Source: Bacteroidota bacterium (GTDB lineage: Bacteria > Bacteroidota > Bacteroidia > Chitinophagales > BACL12). From it: a stretch of 40,914 nucleotides of DNA. A program made the translations under genes and the position numbers. A model generated the notes under the pieces. That model was not told the origin of the DNA, ran no database searches, and worked only from the letters and a program-made list of their open reading frames with translations. The DNA lies in contig JAKQVC010000257.1 in assembly GCA_029571985.1 (NCBI GenBank), positions 1 to 40,914 of the forward strand, given 5' to 3'. Shown one piece after another: positions 10,800 to 17,860 of the stretch. The stretch's first letter is position 1, and the number at the start of each line of letters is the position of its first letter.

Positions 10800-13700
10800 T
10801 TACATGCCTTGCAGCAGGTGCAGTCTTTCATATTTTGACTTCAGGTCTTCTTCTGCCATTTTAAGGAAGGCATCAGCAAGAGCAGGGTCTTTTGCACGTA
10901 TGGAGGCAAATCGGTTTTCATGATACAAGAATTCGCTTAACGGAATTGAAGGGTCTTTAGAATCGAGCAGGAACCTCTCCCCTTTTGGTTTCATCGGATT
11001 AAACCTGAACAATGGCCAGTACCCTGAGTTAACAGCATTTTTCTGTTGATCGCTACCGTGACACATATCATAACCGTGCGCAATGCAGTGACTATAGGCA
11101 ATTATTAAGGAAGGACCCGGGTAGGCTTCAGCCTCCTGAATAACTCTTACAGTATGCATATCATTTGCGGCCATAGCGATTTGTGCGACATAGGCTTTTC
11201 CATGCGCAATCGCCTGCAGGGCCAAATCCTTTTTACCAGATTTTTTTCCGTTAATCGAAAACTTGGCACTTGCACCTAAAGGAGAAGCTTTTGATTTTTG
11301 TCCGCCGGTATTGGAATACACTTCTGTATCCAACACAAATATATTTACGTTCTCTCCTGTAGACAAAACGTGATCAAGTCCGCTAAATCCGATATCATAA
11401 GCCCAACCATCGCCACCTATAATCCAAACAGATTTCTCAATCAGATAATCGGCGAAATGCAACAGCATTTGTGCGTTTGGATGATCGAGGCTGCGAATGC
11501 GTTTGCGCAGGCTTGCTATATATTGTTTTTGTTTCCGCAAATCCGCTTCAGTAGTGCCGGTATTATGCAGAATTGACTGATACAATTCGCTGCCCACTTC
11601 TTCTTTTAATTCTCGAAGTAAATGAAAAGCAATATCACGCTTTTTATCTGTAGCCAGTTTAATACCCAGTCCAAATTCAGCATTATCCTCAAAAAGCGAA
11701 TTAGCCCAGGCAGGGCCCTGACCTTCATGGTTAACTGTCCATGGAGTTGTTGGTAAATTTCCGCCAAAAATGGATGAGCATCCGGTTGCGTTTGCCACTA
11801 CCATTCTATCTCCAAATAACTGAGTCAGTAATTTCAAATAAGGAGTTTCACCACAACCGGCGCAGGCGCCACTAAATTCAAATAATGGCTGTAAGAACTG
11901 CGTGCCTTTTACGGTATTTTTATTCACGCGTTCACGGTCGATGTCAGGTAATGCGAGGAAGAAATCCCAATTATCTCTTTCCGGAATTTCCAACTCCATT
12001 TTATCGACCATATTGATCGCTTTATGGCCAGGATTTGTTTTGCTTTCAACCGGGCAGTATGCTACACACAAATTACATCCGGTGCAATCTTCCACACTCA
12101 CCTGCAGTGTATAGGCTTCCGCTTCCTTGTTAAATTCTTTTCCGATTGGTGCAGTATGTTTAAACGTAAGCGGAGCCTCTGCAAGCATTTCCTTTTCATA
12201 TACTTTTGGGCGGATAGCTGCGTGCGGGCATATCATAAAACACTTTCCACACTGCGAGCAGATATCTGCATCCCAAACCGGCACTTGCTCGGCGATATTG
12301 CGTTTTTCGTATTGAGTAGTTCCGCTTGGGTAGCGGCCATCTACCGGAAATGCACTTACCGGTAAGTCATCGCCATCACCTGCCATAATTTTGCTCAATA
12401 CCTTTTGCACGAAATCAGGCGCATTTCCAGAAATCAAGGCATCCCCTTCTAAAGTTCCGGGAAGCTTATTGCTGTAATCTATTTTATATAAATGCGCCAA
12501 TGCCTGATCGACAGCCACGTAATTTTTCTCGACCACCTGAGCTCCCTTCTTGATATAGGTATCATGGATAGCCTGTTTAATTTCGGCGATAGCAACCTCC
12601 TTTGGCATGACATTACTAATGGCGAAAAAACACGTTTGCAAAATCGTATTAATGCGTGAACCCATACCGGTTTCGCGGGCAACTGCATTAGCGTTTATTG
12701 AGTAGAATTGCAGTTGCTTCTCTATAATTTCTTCTTGTATTTTGTGAGGTAACTGATCCCAAACTTCATCCGGACCGTACGGTGCATTTAATAAGAACAG
12801 CGCCCCCGGTTCGGCAAAGCGCAGCACATCGTATTTGCGCAAATAATTAAAATGATGGCAAGCGACAAAGTTTGCGGAGCGGATTAAATAGGTTGATTTG
12901 ATTGGGTTCTTTCCTGCACGCAAGTGTGAAACGGTAAGTGAGCCCGATTTTTTGCTATCATATACAAAGTATCCCTGCACAAAATCACCGGTTTGATCGC
13001 CCATAATTTTGATGGAATTTTTGTTTGCACTTACTGTTCCATCGGCGCCCAAACCATAAAACAAACCGCGGAATGCATGTTGATCTTCAAGCGTAAAATC
13101 CGGATCAAAATCGAGGCTTGTATGTGATATATCATCTTCAATACCAATCGTAAAGTGATTTTTAGGATGTGAGGATAATAAATTATCGAACACGGCTTTT
13201 ACCATACCCGTATTAAATTCCTTTGACCCTAAACCATATCGGCCACCTACAATAGTTGGCATGTTTTTTCGCTGATGTTCCATCAGGGTGTTGCATATAT
13301 CCATATATAATGGCTCACCTATACTGCCGGGTTCTTTGCAACGGTCGAGCACACAGATATGACGGGCGGAAAGTGGCAATGCATCCATAAATGCCTGAGC
13401 AGGAAATGGTCTGTACAAGCGTATAATAATCGCGCCGGTTTTTTCGCCTTGTGCATTGAGATAATCAATTATTTCCTGAACAGGCCCTGCACCTGAACCC
13501 ATGATTACAACAACTCTTGATGCCTCAGGATCACCATAATATTCAACAAGTGAATACTTACGTCCTGTTAAAGCAGCAAAGGCTTGCATTTTTGCTGAAA
13601 CTATACCGGGCACCTGACTATAATACGTATTAGAGGCTTCACGACCTTGAAAAAACACATCCGGATTTTGCGCGGTACCCTTAATAAATGGATTTGCAGG

Positions 13701-14381
13701 ATTCATAGCGCGACTTCTGTGTGCCATGACATCTGTAGGATCAATCATGGCTTTAATAATTTCATCTGGAATGATATCAACTTCTGTTAATTCATGTGAT
13801 GTTCTGAAACCATCAAAAATATTCATGAATGGCACTCTCGCATTCAATGTGGATGCCTGAGCGATGAGCGCCATATCCATTACCTCTTGAGCATTATTAC
13901 CAAACAACATTGCAAATCCAGTTGATCTGGCTGCCATAACATCGCTATGATCGCCGAAAATACTCAATGCATGAGTGGCTACGGCGCGAGCGGCAATATG
14001 GAAAACAGCAGGTGTAAGTTCACCTGCAATTTTGAACATATTCGGAATCATTAATAACAATCCTTGCGAGCAGGTAAAGGTGGTGCTCAATGCGCCGGCA
14101 GCTAATGCACCGTGAATAGCTCCGGCAGCGCCGGCTTCACTCTGCATTTCAATAACGGTTGGTACTTGCCCGAAAATATTGATAATTCCTTTCGACGACC
14201 ATTCATCAGCCCATTCGCCCATTGGACTCGAGGGCGTTATCGGATAAATGGCACATACCTCGTTTGTTTTAAACGCAATCATGGCGGCCGCTTCATTGCC
14301 ATCCATGACATCACGTTTCCAAGTAAATTGTTTTTTTTCTTGTGGGGAGCTGGTGGTATCAACCATTAATTGCTGTGCCAT
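10800..14381 (-). CDS. nifJ: Pyruvate:ferredoxin (flavodoxin) oxidoreductase, single-chain
   Basis: 1193 residues, the full single-chain length. It oxidises pyruvate and CoA to acetyl-CoA and CO2 and reduces ferredoxin or flavodoxin, in the cytoplasm. Domain I has YPITPSSPMGEWADEW; the gamma-type domain has MGDQTGDFVQGYFVYDSKKSG-like sequence; two [4Fe-4S] motifs follow, CSQCGKCFMIC (C708, C711, C714, C718) and CTGCNLCVAYC (C766, C769, C772, C776). The C-terminal part carries CAGCGETPYLKL and the thiamin diphosphate motif GDGWAYDIGFSGLDHVLSTG with VYSNTGGQ. No frame break is seen. Its 122-nt upstream region holds a nested palindrome and a TGA-N6-TCA site, which suggests redox or anaerobic control. 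It lies about 3.6 kb from a complex I locus lacking the NADH module, a natural user of its reduced product. Confidence 0.95.
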   Translation of the reverse strand: MAQQLMVDTTSSPQEKKQFTWKRDVMDGNEAAAMIAFKTNEVCAIYPITPSSPMGEWADEWSSKGIINIFGQVPTVIEMQSEAGAAGAIHGALAAGALSTTFTCSQGLLLMIPNMFKIAGELTPAVFHIAARAVATHALSIFGDHSDVMAARSTGFAMLFGNNAQEVMDMALIAQASTLNARVPFMNIFDGFRTSHELTEVDIIPDEIIKAMIDPTDVMAHRSRAMNPANPFIKGTAQNPDVFFQGREASNTYYSQVPGIVSAKMQAFAALTGRKYSLVEYYGDPEASRVVVIMGSGAGPVQEIIDYLNAQGEKTGAIIIRLYRPFPAQAFMDALPLSARHICVLDRCKEPGSIGEPLYMDICNTLMEHQRKNMPTIVGGRYGLGSKEFNTGMVKAVFDNLLSSHPKNHFTIGIEDDISHTSLDFDPDFTLEDQHAFRGLFYGLGADGTVSANKNSIKIMGDQTGDFVQGYFVYDSKKSGSLTVSHLRAGKNPIKSTYLIRSANFVACHHFNYLRKYDVLRFAEPGALFLLNAPYGPDEVWDQLPHKIQEEIIEKQLQFYSINANAVARETGMGSRINTILQTCFFAISNVMPKEVAIAEIKQAIHDTYIKKGAQVVEKNYVAVDQALAHLYKIDYSNKLPGTLEGDALISGNAPDFVQKVLSKIMAGDGDDLPVSAFPVDGRYPSGTTQYEKRNIAEQVPVWDADICSQCGKCFMICPHAAIRPKVYEKEMLAEAPLTFKHTAPIGKEFNKEAEAYTLQVSVEDCTGCNLCVAYCPVESKTNPGHKAINMVDKMELEIPERDNWDFFLALPDIDRERVNKNTVKGTQFLQPLFEFSGACAGCGETPYLKLLTQLFGDRMVVANATGCSSIFGGNLPTTPWTVNHEGQGPAWANSLFEDNAEFGLGIKLATDKKRDIAFHLLRELKEEVGSELYQSILHNTGTTEADLRKQKQYIASLRKRIRSLDHPNAQMLLHFADYLIEKSVWIIGGDGWAYDIGFSGLDHVLSTGENVNIFVLDTEVYSNTGGQKSKASPLGASAKFSINGKKSGKKDLALQAIAHGKAYVAQIAMAANDMHTVRVIQEAEAYPGPSLIIAYSHCIAHGYDMCHGSDQQKNAVNSGYWPLFRFNPMKPKGERFLLDSKDPSIPLSEFLYHENRFASIRAKDPALADAFLKMAEEDLKSKYERLHLLQGM

Positions 14382-14503: not shown

Positions 14504-15346
14504 TTAAGTATGGATGCGCGACCTGAAATATTCTCTCACGACCATTGGGAAGAATGCAAGGTCTTCAATAAAGAATCGCTTAAAGAGGCGTCGTGGTTCT
14601 TGTATAAATCTGTGAAACCATTCTGTGCCAGTTTTCTGCATGAGAACCGGAGCGCGTTTTTTTATGCCAACATAAAATTCATAGGAGGCACCTAATAAGA
14701 GGAAAAGTGGGGAAGTTGTCTGATCTCCTTTTGTCTTGTTTGTAGTATGGCATCTGTTAATCATCTCCAGAGCCAACATATGTTGTTTAGGAAATCGGAT
14801 GCCGATTAATACCAACTCAGGTTGAACTAACGCAACTTGCCTCATAGCCGCCTCGAGTATCTCCTGAAATTGTATATGATTATCCACCTCAAAAAACGGA
14901 GGTACGTAATACTGCAAATCCGGGTATTCCTTTTGCAATGGTTGCGCCACCTGGAGGGATGGGGCAATCAATAAAATACGTTTATGCTGCGCGATGGCTT
15001 TCTTCCAGAGCACCGGAAACAAATCGCTACCGGGTAATCTGTTTTTAATAGGCTTACCAATCAAGCGGCTGGCCCACACTATAAATTGACCATCAGGCAA
15101 GATAAAAGCAGCATGTGGCATGTGCCGGGCGATGGCTGCGTTTTTGCGCTTGCTGAATTGCACAACATCATCCACATTCGGTGTAATTACCAGGGGTAAA
15201 TGTGTATCGGTGATGACTGGTTGGTAGGCTAAAATAGTATCTGCAACATCCGCAATTGATTTAGCAGAAATAAAATCCAATCCAAATACAGAAACTTTGT
15301 CTATTAACATGTTTTCATGGTTTAAATAGATGATGTGGGGCATCAC
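14504..15346 (-). CDS. WecG/TagA/CpsF-family glycosyltransferase (GT26)
   Basis: 280 residues. Family marks are ITPNVDDVVQFSKR near residue 54, AAFILPDGQFIVWASRLIGKPI with the presumed catalytic Asp in LPDG (D85), RLPGSDLFPVLWKKA (G106-S107-D108), LVLIGIRFPKQHMLALE, and the C-terminal RAPVLMQKTGTEWFHRFIQ with QEPRRLFKR. The family's usual G.PKQE has His for Glu here. GT26 enzymes add a sugar, often N-acetylmannosamine or its uronate, to a lipid-linked acceptor at the inner face of the membrane; the C-terminal tail helps membrane binding. The substrate here is unknown. An alternative start (MLIDKVSVFG) lies at 15310 and fits the family's N-terminus better, but a promoter candidate allows either. 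It faces the radical SAM and GT2 genes across a 224-nt region. Confidence 0.8.
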   Translation of the reverse strand: MMPHIIYLNHENMLIDKVSVFGLDFISAKSIADVADTILAYQPVITDTHLPLVITPNVDDVVQFSKRKNAAIARHMPHAAFILPDGQFIVWASRLIGKPIKNRLPGSDLFPVLWKKAIAQHKRILLIAPSLQVAQPLQKEYPDLQYYVPPFFEVDNHIQFQEILEAAMRQVALVQPELVLIGIRFPKQHMLALEMINRCHTTNKTKGDQTTSPLFLLLGASYEFYVGIKKRAPVLMQKTGTEWFHRFIQEPRRLFKRFFIEDLAFFPMVVREYFRSRIHT

Positions 15347-15353
15347 CTCATGC

Positions 15354-15385
15354 TAAGGTAAACTGAAATTGTATGTATTTGCAAG
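15354..15385 (-). promoter_or_regulatory. Candidate promoter of the GT26 gene
   Basis: On the minus strand TTG (15385-15383) is followed after 21 nt by TACCTTAG (15361-15354), one mismatch from TAnnTTTG. The start of transcription would fall close to 15347, giving an almost leaderless message if translation begins at 15346, or a leader of about 37 nt if it begins at 15310. Confidence 0.35.
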
Positions 15386-15570
15386 CATTTTTAAACAAAT
15401 ATTTTAGCGAGTATTTGTCTATTGAACGGTTATATATATCTCCTACATTCATGTATGCATTTCACATAATATTTTAGTCACTTCACACAAAGTGGGTTGT
15501 GGGAACAATTGGGAATTCTGACTTTTATAAAACCAACAGCACCCAATCTGTTGCGAATTAAATCTGCTTT

Positions 15571-16722
15571 ATGAAAACACTTAATACACTCTATCAGAGA
15601 GGCGTAGCTTGCACTCGTTTATTTACGCCTGAAAAGAAAATGCCAGTTTACTTGTTGCAATTTGTAACCAACCGATGCAATGCAGCCTGTGATCATTGTT
15701 TTTACTGGCGCGAATTAAATGAGAAGGTCAAAAACGAATTACAATTACCAGAGTATGAAAAAATCGCCAGGAGTCTTGGGCCGATGCTGCAGGTTACGTT
15801 AACAGGAGGTAGTCCTGAATTGCGCACTGATCTTCCGGAAATTACGGAAATATATTCCAGCATATGCAAGCCAGCTAACATTACTTTTTGCATGCTCGGG
15901 CATAGCACAAACCGAATCGTGCAGCATATGGAAAAAATATTGCGTAAAATGCCCAATCAACGCTTTACTGTTGCCATTTCGCTTGATGGGATTGGCGAGG
16001 AGCACGACAAACTCCGCAGACTGGATGGCTGCTTTGATCGCGTGTTAGAAACCTTTGCCCATTTAGGAAAAATGAAAAAGCACCATAAGAATTTGCGATT
16101 GGCTGTTGGCACTGTAGTACAAGGATTAAACTATCAGACTGTAGCAGATACCGCATTATGGGCGCGCACACATTTACCTATTGATTTATTGAAACCAATT
16201 TTAGTTCGAGGCAATCCATTAAATGCAGAATCGAAAAAAGACATCTGTGTTGAAACATATATTGATGTAATTGATCGTGACCGGCAATGGATGAACGGTT
16301 CGAGAGGGGGTTTACAAACACCGATGGATTATATCATTGCCACTAAAGAAAATATTCAGCGTGATTTAATCTCACAAATTGCGATGACTAAAATGGCGCG
16401 TCATACCTGTGCAGGCGGACGTGAAACAGCAGTCATTTATCCAGACGGAAATGTGGCAGGATGTGAATTGCGTGATGATGTATTAGGCAATGTGCGCGAT
16501 GTTGCATACGATTTCAAAAAAATCTGGTTAGGCGCCGCAGGTGATGCCTTCAGAGCAACCACCGGCAAAGCAGAAGCTTGTCAAGGATGTTATCACCATT
16601 GTTTTTTAAGCCCTACCGTTTTCAGAACACCCGCTTTATGGCCAAAGGTGATGCAATCAGCCATTTCGGTATACAGAAATAACAAACGGCAAAAATGGCA
16701 ACCTGAAGCAGTTACTGCCTAA
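15571..16722 (+). CDS. Radical SAM protein with SPASM-like C-terminal cluster domain
   Basis: 383 residues. Near the N-terminus LLQFVTNRCNAACDHCFYW gives the CX3CX2C cluster (C36, C40, C43), followed by the SAM-binding LTGGSPELR and the strand AISLDGIGEEHDKLR. The C-terminal part has Cys at about 280, 298, 337, 340 and 344 (HTCAGG, AGCELRDD, EACQGCYHHC), as in SPASM or Twitch domains that hold extra iron-sulfur clusters; IYPDGNVAGCE is typical. Such enzymes modify peptides, sugars or lipids by radical chemistry. No peptide precursor is visible, and the gene is followed by a GT2 glycosyltransferase whose ATG lies 30 nt after its stop, so a role in glycan or glycolipid synthesis is more likely than peptide maturation. 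The substrate cannot be told. Confidence 0.82.
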   Translation: MKTLNTLYQRGVACTRLFTPEKKMPVYLLQFVTNRCNAACDHCFYWRELNEKVKNELQLPEYEKIARSLGPMLQVTLTGGSPELRTDLPEITEIYSSICKPANITFCMLGHSTNRIVQHMEKILRKMPNQRFTVAISLDGIGEEHDKLRRLDGCFDRVLETFAHLGKMKKHHKNLRLAVGTVVQGLNYQTVADTALWARTHLPIDLLKPILVRGNPLNAESKKDICVETYIDVIDRDRQWMNGSRGGLQTPMDYIIATKENIQRDLISQIAMTKMARHTCAGGRETAVIYPDGNVAGCELRDDVLGNVRDVAYDFKKIWLGAAGDAFRATTGKAEACQGCYHHCFLSPTVFRTPALWPKVMQSAISVYRNNKRQKWQPEAVTA

Positions 16723-16752
16723 TTGAGTAATGTCAAAATTAAATTTCTCCCT

Positions 16753-17805
16753 ATGACACAACCATTAATTCCATTTCCAGTTCGTGTAATTGTGCCCGCT
16801 TACAAAGCAAATGCTACTATTCAAATTTGTCTGCAGCACATTTTTAAGGCCCTCACCTCATTTGCAGATGCAGAGGTATTTGTAGTTACCCATAAAACAA
16901 CGATATGTAACTTTTCTGATGACCGATTACACATTATTGATTCTGCTAAACCATTAAATGCGGGAGAGGCGCGTAATGTTGGTGCACAAGATTGCGGTAA
17001 TCGAATATTACTTTTCGTTGACGCAGATGTATTGGTGCATGCTGACACATTTGTTGCATTGACTGCACCCATCCGACAAGGAATTGCGGATGCTACTGTT
17101 GGGAATTACGCAACTGATGTATACGGCAACGCATTTTATCAAAAGTATAAAAAGTTGTATATCCACCAAGCCTACGCACGCGAGGGATTTATAACGAATG
17201 AATTCTGGACCGCAATTGCGGCTATTCATGGCAATGTATTTCATGCAGTAGGCGCATTTTCTACCACTTTTGCATTTAAAGGTGGCGAGGATACGGAAAT
17301 TGGTATGCGCATCACCAATTCCGGTTTTCGTATTTATGCAGTGGCAACTGCCCAAGGTAGTCATTTGAAAACCTTTACTTTTTCTTCATTGGTCGAAAAT
17401 GATTTTATCAAAGGCACACGCACTGTCGTTTTAGCGCTGCAGCGTAAAACACCGCTTAGTGAAAACCGACATGCAAAAAAATCAGACCAGCTGGCAGTGG
17501 CGTTGGCTTGTTTGATGCTGATACTGATTCCTGCTGCATCCCTGGTTCCATGGTTAATTTTGTTTATGCCACTTTTGGTGGCTGGTTATATCTATAGCCG
17601 TGGAAGCTTTGTGATATTATGCATCCGGGAAGGCATTTGGTTTACCATTCGAGCTTTAATCATGAGTTGGACGCTAGACCTAGTTCGAGCGGCATCTGTA
17701 GCATTTGGCTCAGGTATCTATTTCCTACGGAAGGCCCCTGCAGTAAAAGCACCGGCGTCTGCGGTTGTTACCCTAAAACCCGGCCAGGAGCCACTCAGAG
17801 CATAA
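16753..17805 (+). CDS. GT2 family glycosyltransferase with C-terminal membrane segments
   Basis: 350 residues from the ATG at 16753. The frame is open to a TTG at 16723, directly after the radical SAM stop, but the ATG puts VRVIVPAYKANATIQ at the N-terminus as in GT-A enzymes. The nucleotide-sugar/metal motif is LLFVDADVLVHADTF (D90-A91-D92), and KGGEDTEIGMRI (E178-D179) supplies the catalytic ED region. After residue about 235 come two or three hydrophobic stretches (LAVALACLMLILIPAASLV and LILFMPLLVAGYIY) and an amphipathic end. It should transfer a sugar at the inner membrane; donor and acceptor are unknown. It shares an operon with the radical SAM gene and ends in a strong terminator before nuoA. 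Confidence 0.83.
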   Translation: MTQPLIPFPVRVIVPAYKANATIQICLQHIFKALTSFADAEVFVVTHKTTICNFSDDRLHIIDSAKPLNAGEARNVGAQDCGNRILLFVDADVLVHADTFVALTAPIRQGIADATVGNYATDVYGNAFYQKYKKLYIHQAYAREGFITNEFWTAIAAIHGNVFHAVGAFSTTFAFKGGEDTEIGMRITNSGFRIYAVATAQGSHLKTFTFSSLVENDFIKGTRTVVLALQRKTPLSENRHAKKSDQLAVALACLMLILIPAASLVPWLILFMPLLVAGYIYSRGSFVILCIREGIWFTIRALIMSWTLDLVRAASVAFGSGIYFLRKAPAVKAPASAVVTLKPGQEPLRA

Positions 17806-17829: not shown

Positions 17830-17860
17830 GCCCGTTTCGAACTGTGAAACGGGCATTTTT
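17830..17860 (+). terminator. Intrinsic terminator of the radical SAM-GT2 operon
   Basis: GCCCGTTTC, loop GAACTGT, GAAACGGGC: nine perfect pairs followed by ATTTTT. It lies 25 nt after the GT2 stop and separates this operon from nuo. Confidence 0.9.

Follow-up and report, generated by a model that had tools for sequence, protein, structure and literature searches.

The window analyzed here is a 40,914-nucleotide contig (JAKQVC010000257.1) from a 4.01-Mb draft assembly of 282 contigs (GCA_029571985.1) assigned to a Bacteroidota bacterium. Between nifJ and the nuo operon, it carries genes for a GT26 glycosyltransferase, a radical S-adenosylmethionine (SAM) protein, and a GT2 glycosyltransferase predicted to be membrane bound. 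The best reading of our data is that the radical SAM and GT2 genes form a rare, horizontally spread two-gene cassette. With a probability of roughly 0.5, this cassette modifies a membrane- or polyprenyl-linked sugar, and its product is probably a chemically altered surface sugar. The glycan context of the radical SAM gene is well supported: a GT2 gene is its constant partner, and a sister clade sits among polysaccharide genes, both of which indicate a sugar, most probably one linked to the membrane or to polyprenyl. A preliminary description of this locus had proposed a sugar or lipid carrier as the substrate of the radical enzyme; its placement in glycan biosynthesis stands, while the substrate, like the reaction, is what we infer.

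The radical SAM/GT2 pair and its distribution

The genome_contigs collection was scanned with the window radical SAM protein alone, and the scan returned 12 loci, eight of them close (52 to 57% identity over the best segment) and four planctomycete (27 to 28%). A GT2 gene directly adjoined the radical SAM gene in all eight close loci, and the neighboring GT2s were 33 to 39% identical to the window GT2 by BLAST, as members of the same subfamily. Because the GT2 was not part of the query, this adjacency is not a selection effect. The eight hosts belong to the Bacteroidota, Kapabacteria, Ignavibacteria, and Acetobacteraceae. Gene order is GT2 followed by radical SAM in all eight and radical SAM followed by GT2 in the window, with adjacency kept and a spacing of −23 to +64 bases across the pairs. 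Moreover, the pairwise distance matrices of the two proteins were strongly correlated (r = 0.925; 1 of 5,000 permutations as high) in eight of the nine pairs; the ninth, L009, was excluded because its radical SAM gene is split. In that Acetobacteraceae draft, the gene is broken across two frames (L009:1855-2984), by either assembly error or decay. The window radical SAM protein is equally distant from other Bacteroidota members and from an Acetobacteraceae one, which points to horizontal spread of the pair. In a FastTree phylogeny of 19 radical SAM proteins, the paired clade formed its own branch (support, 0.992), and deeper branching was weak.

The pair is rare. An eight-row radical SAM profile, A1, matched 3 of 395 genomes of the phylum at an E value of ≤1e-40, two of them close (the window genome, G000, and G028). 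At the same threshold it matched 8 of 391 genomes in the class of G405 (close members in G405, G406, and G401 and distant ones in the other five), and at ≤1e-30 only G407 itself among the 299 genomes of its family. Within the window's own family, one of six genomes, G000, had a homologue (E ≤ 1e-20). A GT2 profile (E ≤ 1e-30) matched 6 of the 395 phylum genomes: the two paired ones at 451 and 603 bits, scores inflated by the fact that the window GT2, and very probably that of G028, are rows of the profile, and four others at 124 to 174 bits. None of these four weaker matches lay beside a BLAST match to the window radical SAM protein. One of them, L030, has a QueE-like gene downstream, as judged from its N terminus only.

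Motifs and models of the encoded proteins

The features of the locus are as follows (coordinates in the window, strand, feature, and basis).

14504-15346, minus strand: GT26 (WecG/TagA/CpsF) glycosyltransferase, 280 amino acids (Pfam; TagA alignment)
15347-15570, no strand: spacer separating the divergently transcribed GT26 and radical SAM genes (map of open reading frames [ORFs])
15571-16722, plus strand: radical SAM protein with a Twitch-like auxiliary-cluster domain, 383 amino acids (Pfam, motifs, close homologues)
15676-15699, plus strand: CX3CX2C radical SAM cluster motif, Cys36, Cys40, and Cys43 (motif scan)
15805-15816, plus strand: GGSP replacing the usual GGEP (motif scan; in all nine paired-clade sequences)
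16408-16602, plus strand: putative auxiliary-cluster cysteines, Cys280-X12-G-X4-Cys298 and Cys337-X2-Cys340-X3-Cys344 (motif scan; definitions from PMC6231123)
16753-17805, plus strand: membrane GT2 glycosyltransferase; ORF open from TTG 16723, 360 amino acids (Pfam, family homology, model)
17020-17028, plus strand: DxD (DAD) motif of the GT2 (motif scan)
17284-17298, plus strand: GEDTE motif of the GT2 (GED invariant across nine aligned GT2s)
17491-17664, plus strand: C-terminal hydrophobic segments of the GT2 (sequence and model)
17830-17854, plus strand: intrinsic terminator, 10-pair stem and then a T run, after the GT2 gene (terminator scan)

The radical SAM protein carries the CX3CX2C motif and matches Radical_SAM (PF04055) at 54.6 bits (cut-off, 29.5), and it thus belongs to the radical SAM superfamily; it also matches SPASM at 28.9 bits (cut-off, 21.5). 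In PMC6231123, the SPASM motif is defined by seven cysteines, CX9-15GX4C-gap-CX2CX5CX3C-gap-C, with two auxiliary clusters, and the Twitch motif by C-X9-15-G-X4-C, gap, C-X2-C, with one. Despite the Pfam score, the seven-cysteine pattern was missing from all sequences tested, whereas the five auxiliary cysteines of the window protein fit the Twitch pattern. The extra cysteines reported in the preliminary description are therefore present, but they number five and not seven, and by its cysteines we class the protein as Twitch-like, with a single predicted auxiliary cluster. No NCBIfam model reached its cut-off for the window protein among the best 25 of 65 matches, and none did so for nine relatives among the matches listed. 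A match to a family with a known, unrelated substrate, which the preliminary description had named as grounds for abandoning its view, was thus looked for, and no curated family reaches its cut-off among the matches listed.

Sugar-acting radical SAM enzymes are known from antibiotics. One of them is BlsE, whose substrate is made by a glycosyltransferase. According to PMC3715490, BlsE, of the blasticidin S pathway, has the sugar moiety of a glycoside as its direct target and depends on the Glu of its GGEP motif. In the window protein this Glu is Ser, and the two enzymes are likened by description, not by sequence. GGSP was found in all nine paired-clade sequences that contain the region, none of which has the Glu of GGEP, while five distant homologues tested had GGEP (four) or GGEA (one, in G358). 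Given the need for that Glu in BlsE, GGSP marks the paired clade. BtrN, a Twitch-type dehydrogenase that oxidizes an aminocyclitol (PMC9012708), likewise has one radical cluster and the C-X9-15-G-X4-C, gap, C-X2-C set. Relative to BtrN and the Twitch type in general, likened here by cysteine pattern, the window protein has GGSP in place of GGEP and an extra cysteine after CX2C.

The GT2 matches Glyco_tranf_2_3 at 40.4 bits (cut-off, 27), and no NCBIfam model shown for it reached its cut-off. Its start is more likely ATG 16753 than TTG 16723, since family homology begins at the former. The structure model (pLDDT, 82.6) has a GT-A fold, the DxD motif, and predicted C-terminal membrane helices, as expected of a membrane GT2. 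It superposes best on hyaluronan synthase (Z, 21.4; 311 residues; root mean square deviation, 3.8) and on PcManGT (Z, 20.5; 284 residues; root mean square deviation, 4.1). The modeled fold is the common membrane GT-A arrangement and points to no particular acceptor. We take the GEDTE motif to be the region of the catalytic base.

Sister-clade operons, GT26, and the differing block

Of the eight profile A1 matches in the class of G405, the five distant ones (166 to 199 bits) are G778, G951, G936, G845, and G919; G919 and G358 were taken as one genome, with a match at the same place and the same E value. Four of these sister-clade radical SAM proteins were measured and are 28 to 31% identical to the window protein. 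In G778, G936, and G845, genes for a GT26, a polysaccharide deacetylase, the radical SAM protein, and a sugar transferase stand in a row; in G358, the GT26, deacetylase, and radical SAM genes precede one that has no Pfam match; and in G951, the contig ends within the deacetylase gene, next to which come the radical SAM and sugar transferase genes. Thus, the GT26 gene stands two positions upstream of the radical SAM gene in 4/4 loci whose upstream side is on the contig, the deacetylase is present in 5/5, and an initiating sugar transferase is present in 4/5 (three of the four full loci, plus G951). Pfam identified all four genes of G778, the deacetylase and transferase of G936, and the GT26 of G358; the GT26s of G936 and G845 were identified by BLAST, and in G845, G951, and G358 the names deacetylase and transferase rest on N-terminal likeness to the Pfam-scanned proteins. 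More distant still is a Parabacteroides distasonis homologue (26.9%; L014:7992-10469); the next gene encodes a protein annotated as containing a sugar-binding domain, with GT28 and EryCIII-like domains. Planctomycete locus L010 has two GT2-like genes, recognized by N terminus only, about 2.2 kb downstream.

The window GT26 matches the Pfam WecG family at 114.1 bits (cut-off, 27.4) and, in NCBIfam, passes only the WecB/TagA/CpsF superfamily model (81.2 versus 69), and it is thus a GT26 member. Aligned to 7mpk, with positions taken by eye, it matches TagA at Thr37, Asn39, Asp65, Arg83, Gln167, Arg214, Arg221, and Arg224, and TagA Glu168 is replaced by His (active-site residues from PMC6493773). 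The named TagA residues other than Glu168 are therefore kept. To our knowledge, no known TagA/WecG system has a radical SAM gene next to the GT26 gene.

PF03808 was matched in all six genomes of the family to which the window belongs. In G003, G001, and G002, the GT26 shares 45 to 50% identity with that of the window, and its gene neighbors an SDR-like gene, recognized as SDR by its N terminus only (L044:1465-3329, L045:4266-6100, and L046:5080-6829); a search, which is not proof of absence, found no such partner in the window genome. These three GT26s are 60 to 66% identical among themselves, and the window's is 45% identical to that of G003, a member of its own genus with about 92% NuoB identity. 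This pattern, despite the NuoB identity, suggests that the window GT26 is not a plain vertical copy and looks acquired; simple vertical descent was not supported. At an E value of ≤1e-40, one other GT26 of this kind was found among the 395 phylum genomes, in G258 (38%), where the locus has GT2-like genes and no match to the window radical SAM protein.

The ORFs and Pfam families bear out the three genes between nifJ and nuo given in the preliminary description, with the same coordinates, 14504-15346 (minus), 15571-16722 (plus), and 16723-17805 (plus, counted from the TTG). The GT26 gene, however, had been said to face the other two, and it is in fact divergent, back-to-back with them across 15347-15570. 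nifJ (10800-14381) and the nuo operon (17972 onward) are divergent neighbors in both the window and the sibling genome G003, but the nifJ-nuoA gap is 468 bases in G003 and 3,590 in the window, and the G003 junction holds none of the three genes. The flanking DNA of the two genomes is alignable up to 14495 and again from 17925, and so the differing block consists of just the three genes and their terminator. G003 has 374 other bases in its place, making gain and loss of the block both possible. Foreign base composition of the three genes was rejected (codon z between −0.9 and 1.8), a result still compatible with old transfer. No convincing flanking repeats of a mobile element were found around the block, and phage carriage was likewise rejected: 22 viral_contigs stretches matched a pattern, none encoding a relative.

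Proposed function and its alternatives

In the proposed mechanism, the GT2, with its GT-A fold, DxD motif, and C-terminal membrane segments, would carry out sugar transfer at the membrane, and the radical SAM protein would abstract a hydrogen atom, either from the transferred sugar or from the nucleotide-sugar donor of the GT2, and then oxidize, epimerize, or dehydrate it, the choice among these changes being conjectural. The GT26, an optional component, would probably add a HexNAc-type sugar to an undecaprenyl-pyrophosphate acceptor in the same process in this strain. If this reading holds, the pair is a small two-gene system for sugar modification spread by horizontal transfer, and a function is suggested for an unnamed radical SAM clade.

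Several observations weigh against this interpretation. The L003 and L008 pairs are near-identical, leaving about eight independent cases of nine, and the co-variation of the two proteins could reflect joint transfer without joint function. The GT26 gene lay beside none of the eight close pairs, on contigs several of which are short, and PF03808 was detected in two of these eight genomes and undetected in six. At 28 to 31% identity, the sister-clade context may not carry over to the window protein. Three of the four planctomycete homologues have no recognized glycan neighbor, and loci L011, L012, and L013 showed no match to the window GT2 or GT26. The radical SAM structure model has a pLDDT of 58.2 and is unreliable in the region of the auxiliary cysteines; the model and its Foldseek matches were excluded from the evidence. 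Finally, peptide maturases, SkfB among them, can likewise have Twitch domains (PMC6231123).

SkfB is in fact the best PDB sequence match of the radical SAM protein, and the pair might mature a ribosomally synthesized and posttranslationally modified peptide that is then glycosylated, as by MftC, likewise a SPASM-type radical SAM protein, and the GT2 MftF in mycofactocin, with a precursor gene elsewhere. Many SPASM/Twitch enzymes are peptide maturases (PMC9012708), and the GT2 matches MftF at 29.9 bits. That score is, however, far below the cut-off of 280, so that the GT2 is not an MftF member; the radical SAM domain starts at residue 32 (Pfam), leaving no room for an N-terminal recognition domain; and no small ORF was shared between loci in the 1.5 kb around the pairs, as far as the contigs reach, in agreement, for a linked precursor, with the earlier statement that no peptide precursor is present. 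We therefore regard this explanation as improbable. Somewhat less so, yet still unlikely, is action of the radical enzyme on the hydrocarbon moiety of a membrane lipid, the kind of chemistry carried out by Tes and HpnH, with the GT2 adding a sugar head group. The predicted membrane location of the GT2 would suit it, one of the few sequence matches in the PDB is to a Tes structure (30.1 bits), and the HpnH model (TIGR03470) scores 43.4 bits, but its cut-off is 225.05, squalene-hopene cyclase was found in just two of nine paired genomes (both Acetobacteraceae, with no match in G000), and the sister-clade operons contain polysaccharide genes. A hopanoid link was rejected on the cyclase count, and the protein is not an HpnH member.

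A different question is whether the GT26 belongs with the cassette at all. The preliminary description had treated the three genes as one unit; its suggested search for co-occurrence recovered the radical SAM/GT2 pair in 8/8 close loci and did not recover the strict trio, and for the close clade the trio as a conserved unit is rejected. Lack of conservation, the other ground that this description had named for abandoning its view, applies to the strict trio but not to the pair. The GT26 may hence be a chance neighbor with a pathway of its own, an explanation that falls somewhat short of even odds and is compatible with the sugar-modifying cassette. The missing adjacency in the close pairs and the SDR-paired GT26s of the three family relatives speak for it, whereas the block lacking from the G003 junction contains all three genes, the window GT26 looks acquired, and GT26 genes also occur in the sister radical SAM operons. 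The GT26 probably acts in the same process as the pair in this strain, in a role that we can only propose.

Among known systems, the arsenosugar pair ArsS (TIGR04167) and TIGR04283 likewise couples, by NCBIfam names, a small transferase of the GT2 type to a radical SAM protein. The window GT2, however, scores 25.4 bits against the TIGR04283 cut-off of 182 and is no member, and among the matches listed TIGR04167 appeared only for the relative L002 (40 bits versus 300). We know of no radical SAM enzyme that acts on lipid-linked envelope glycans, and neither such a pair nor such an operon is described in the titles and abstract openings searched, most subscription journals lying outside that scope.

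The preliminary description had ended the operon with a strong terminator, and the 10-pair stem and T run at 17830-17854 confirm this; since six terminator-like sites were found versus 3.7 expected in shuffles, only the stem quality of this one is notable. Region 15347-15570, upstream of the radical SAM gene, had one weak sigma-70-like match per strand and no match to a Bacteroidota-type promoter.

More broadly, and tentatively, a Twitch-type radical SAM clade spanning several phyla may modify polyprenyl-linked saccharides in envelope-glycan assembly, one branch with a dedicated GT2 and the other with a GT26, a deacetylase, and an initiating sugar transferase. If true, a lipid-linked glycan intermediate would be the target of radical chemistry. 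The GT26-deacetylase-radical SAM operon of L061, L062, L063, L064, and L019, mostly with a sugar transferase, is a candidate pathway of its own.

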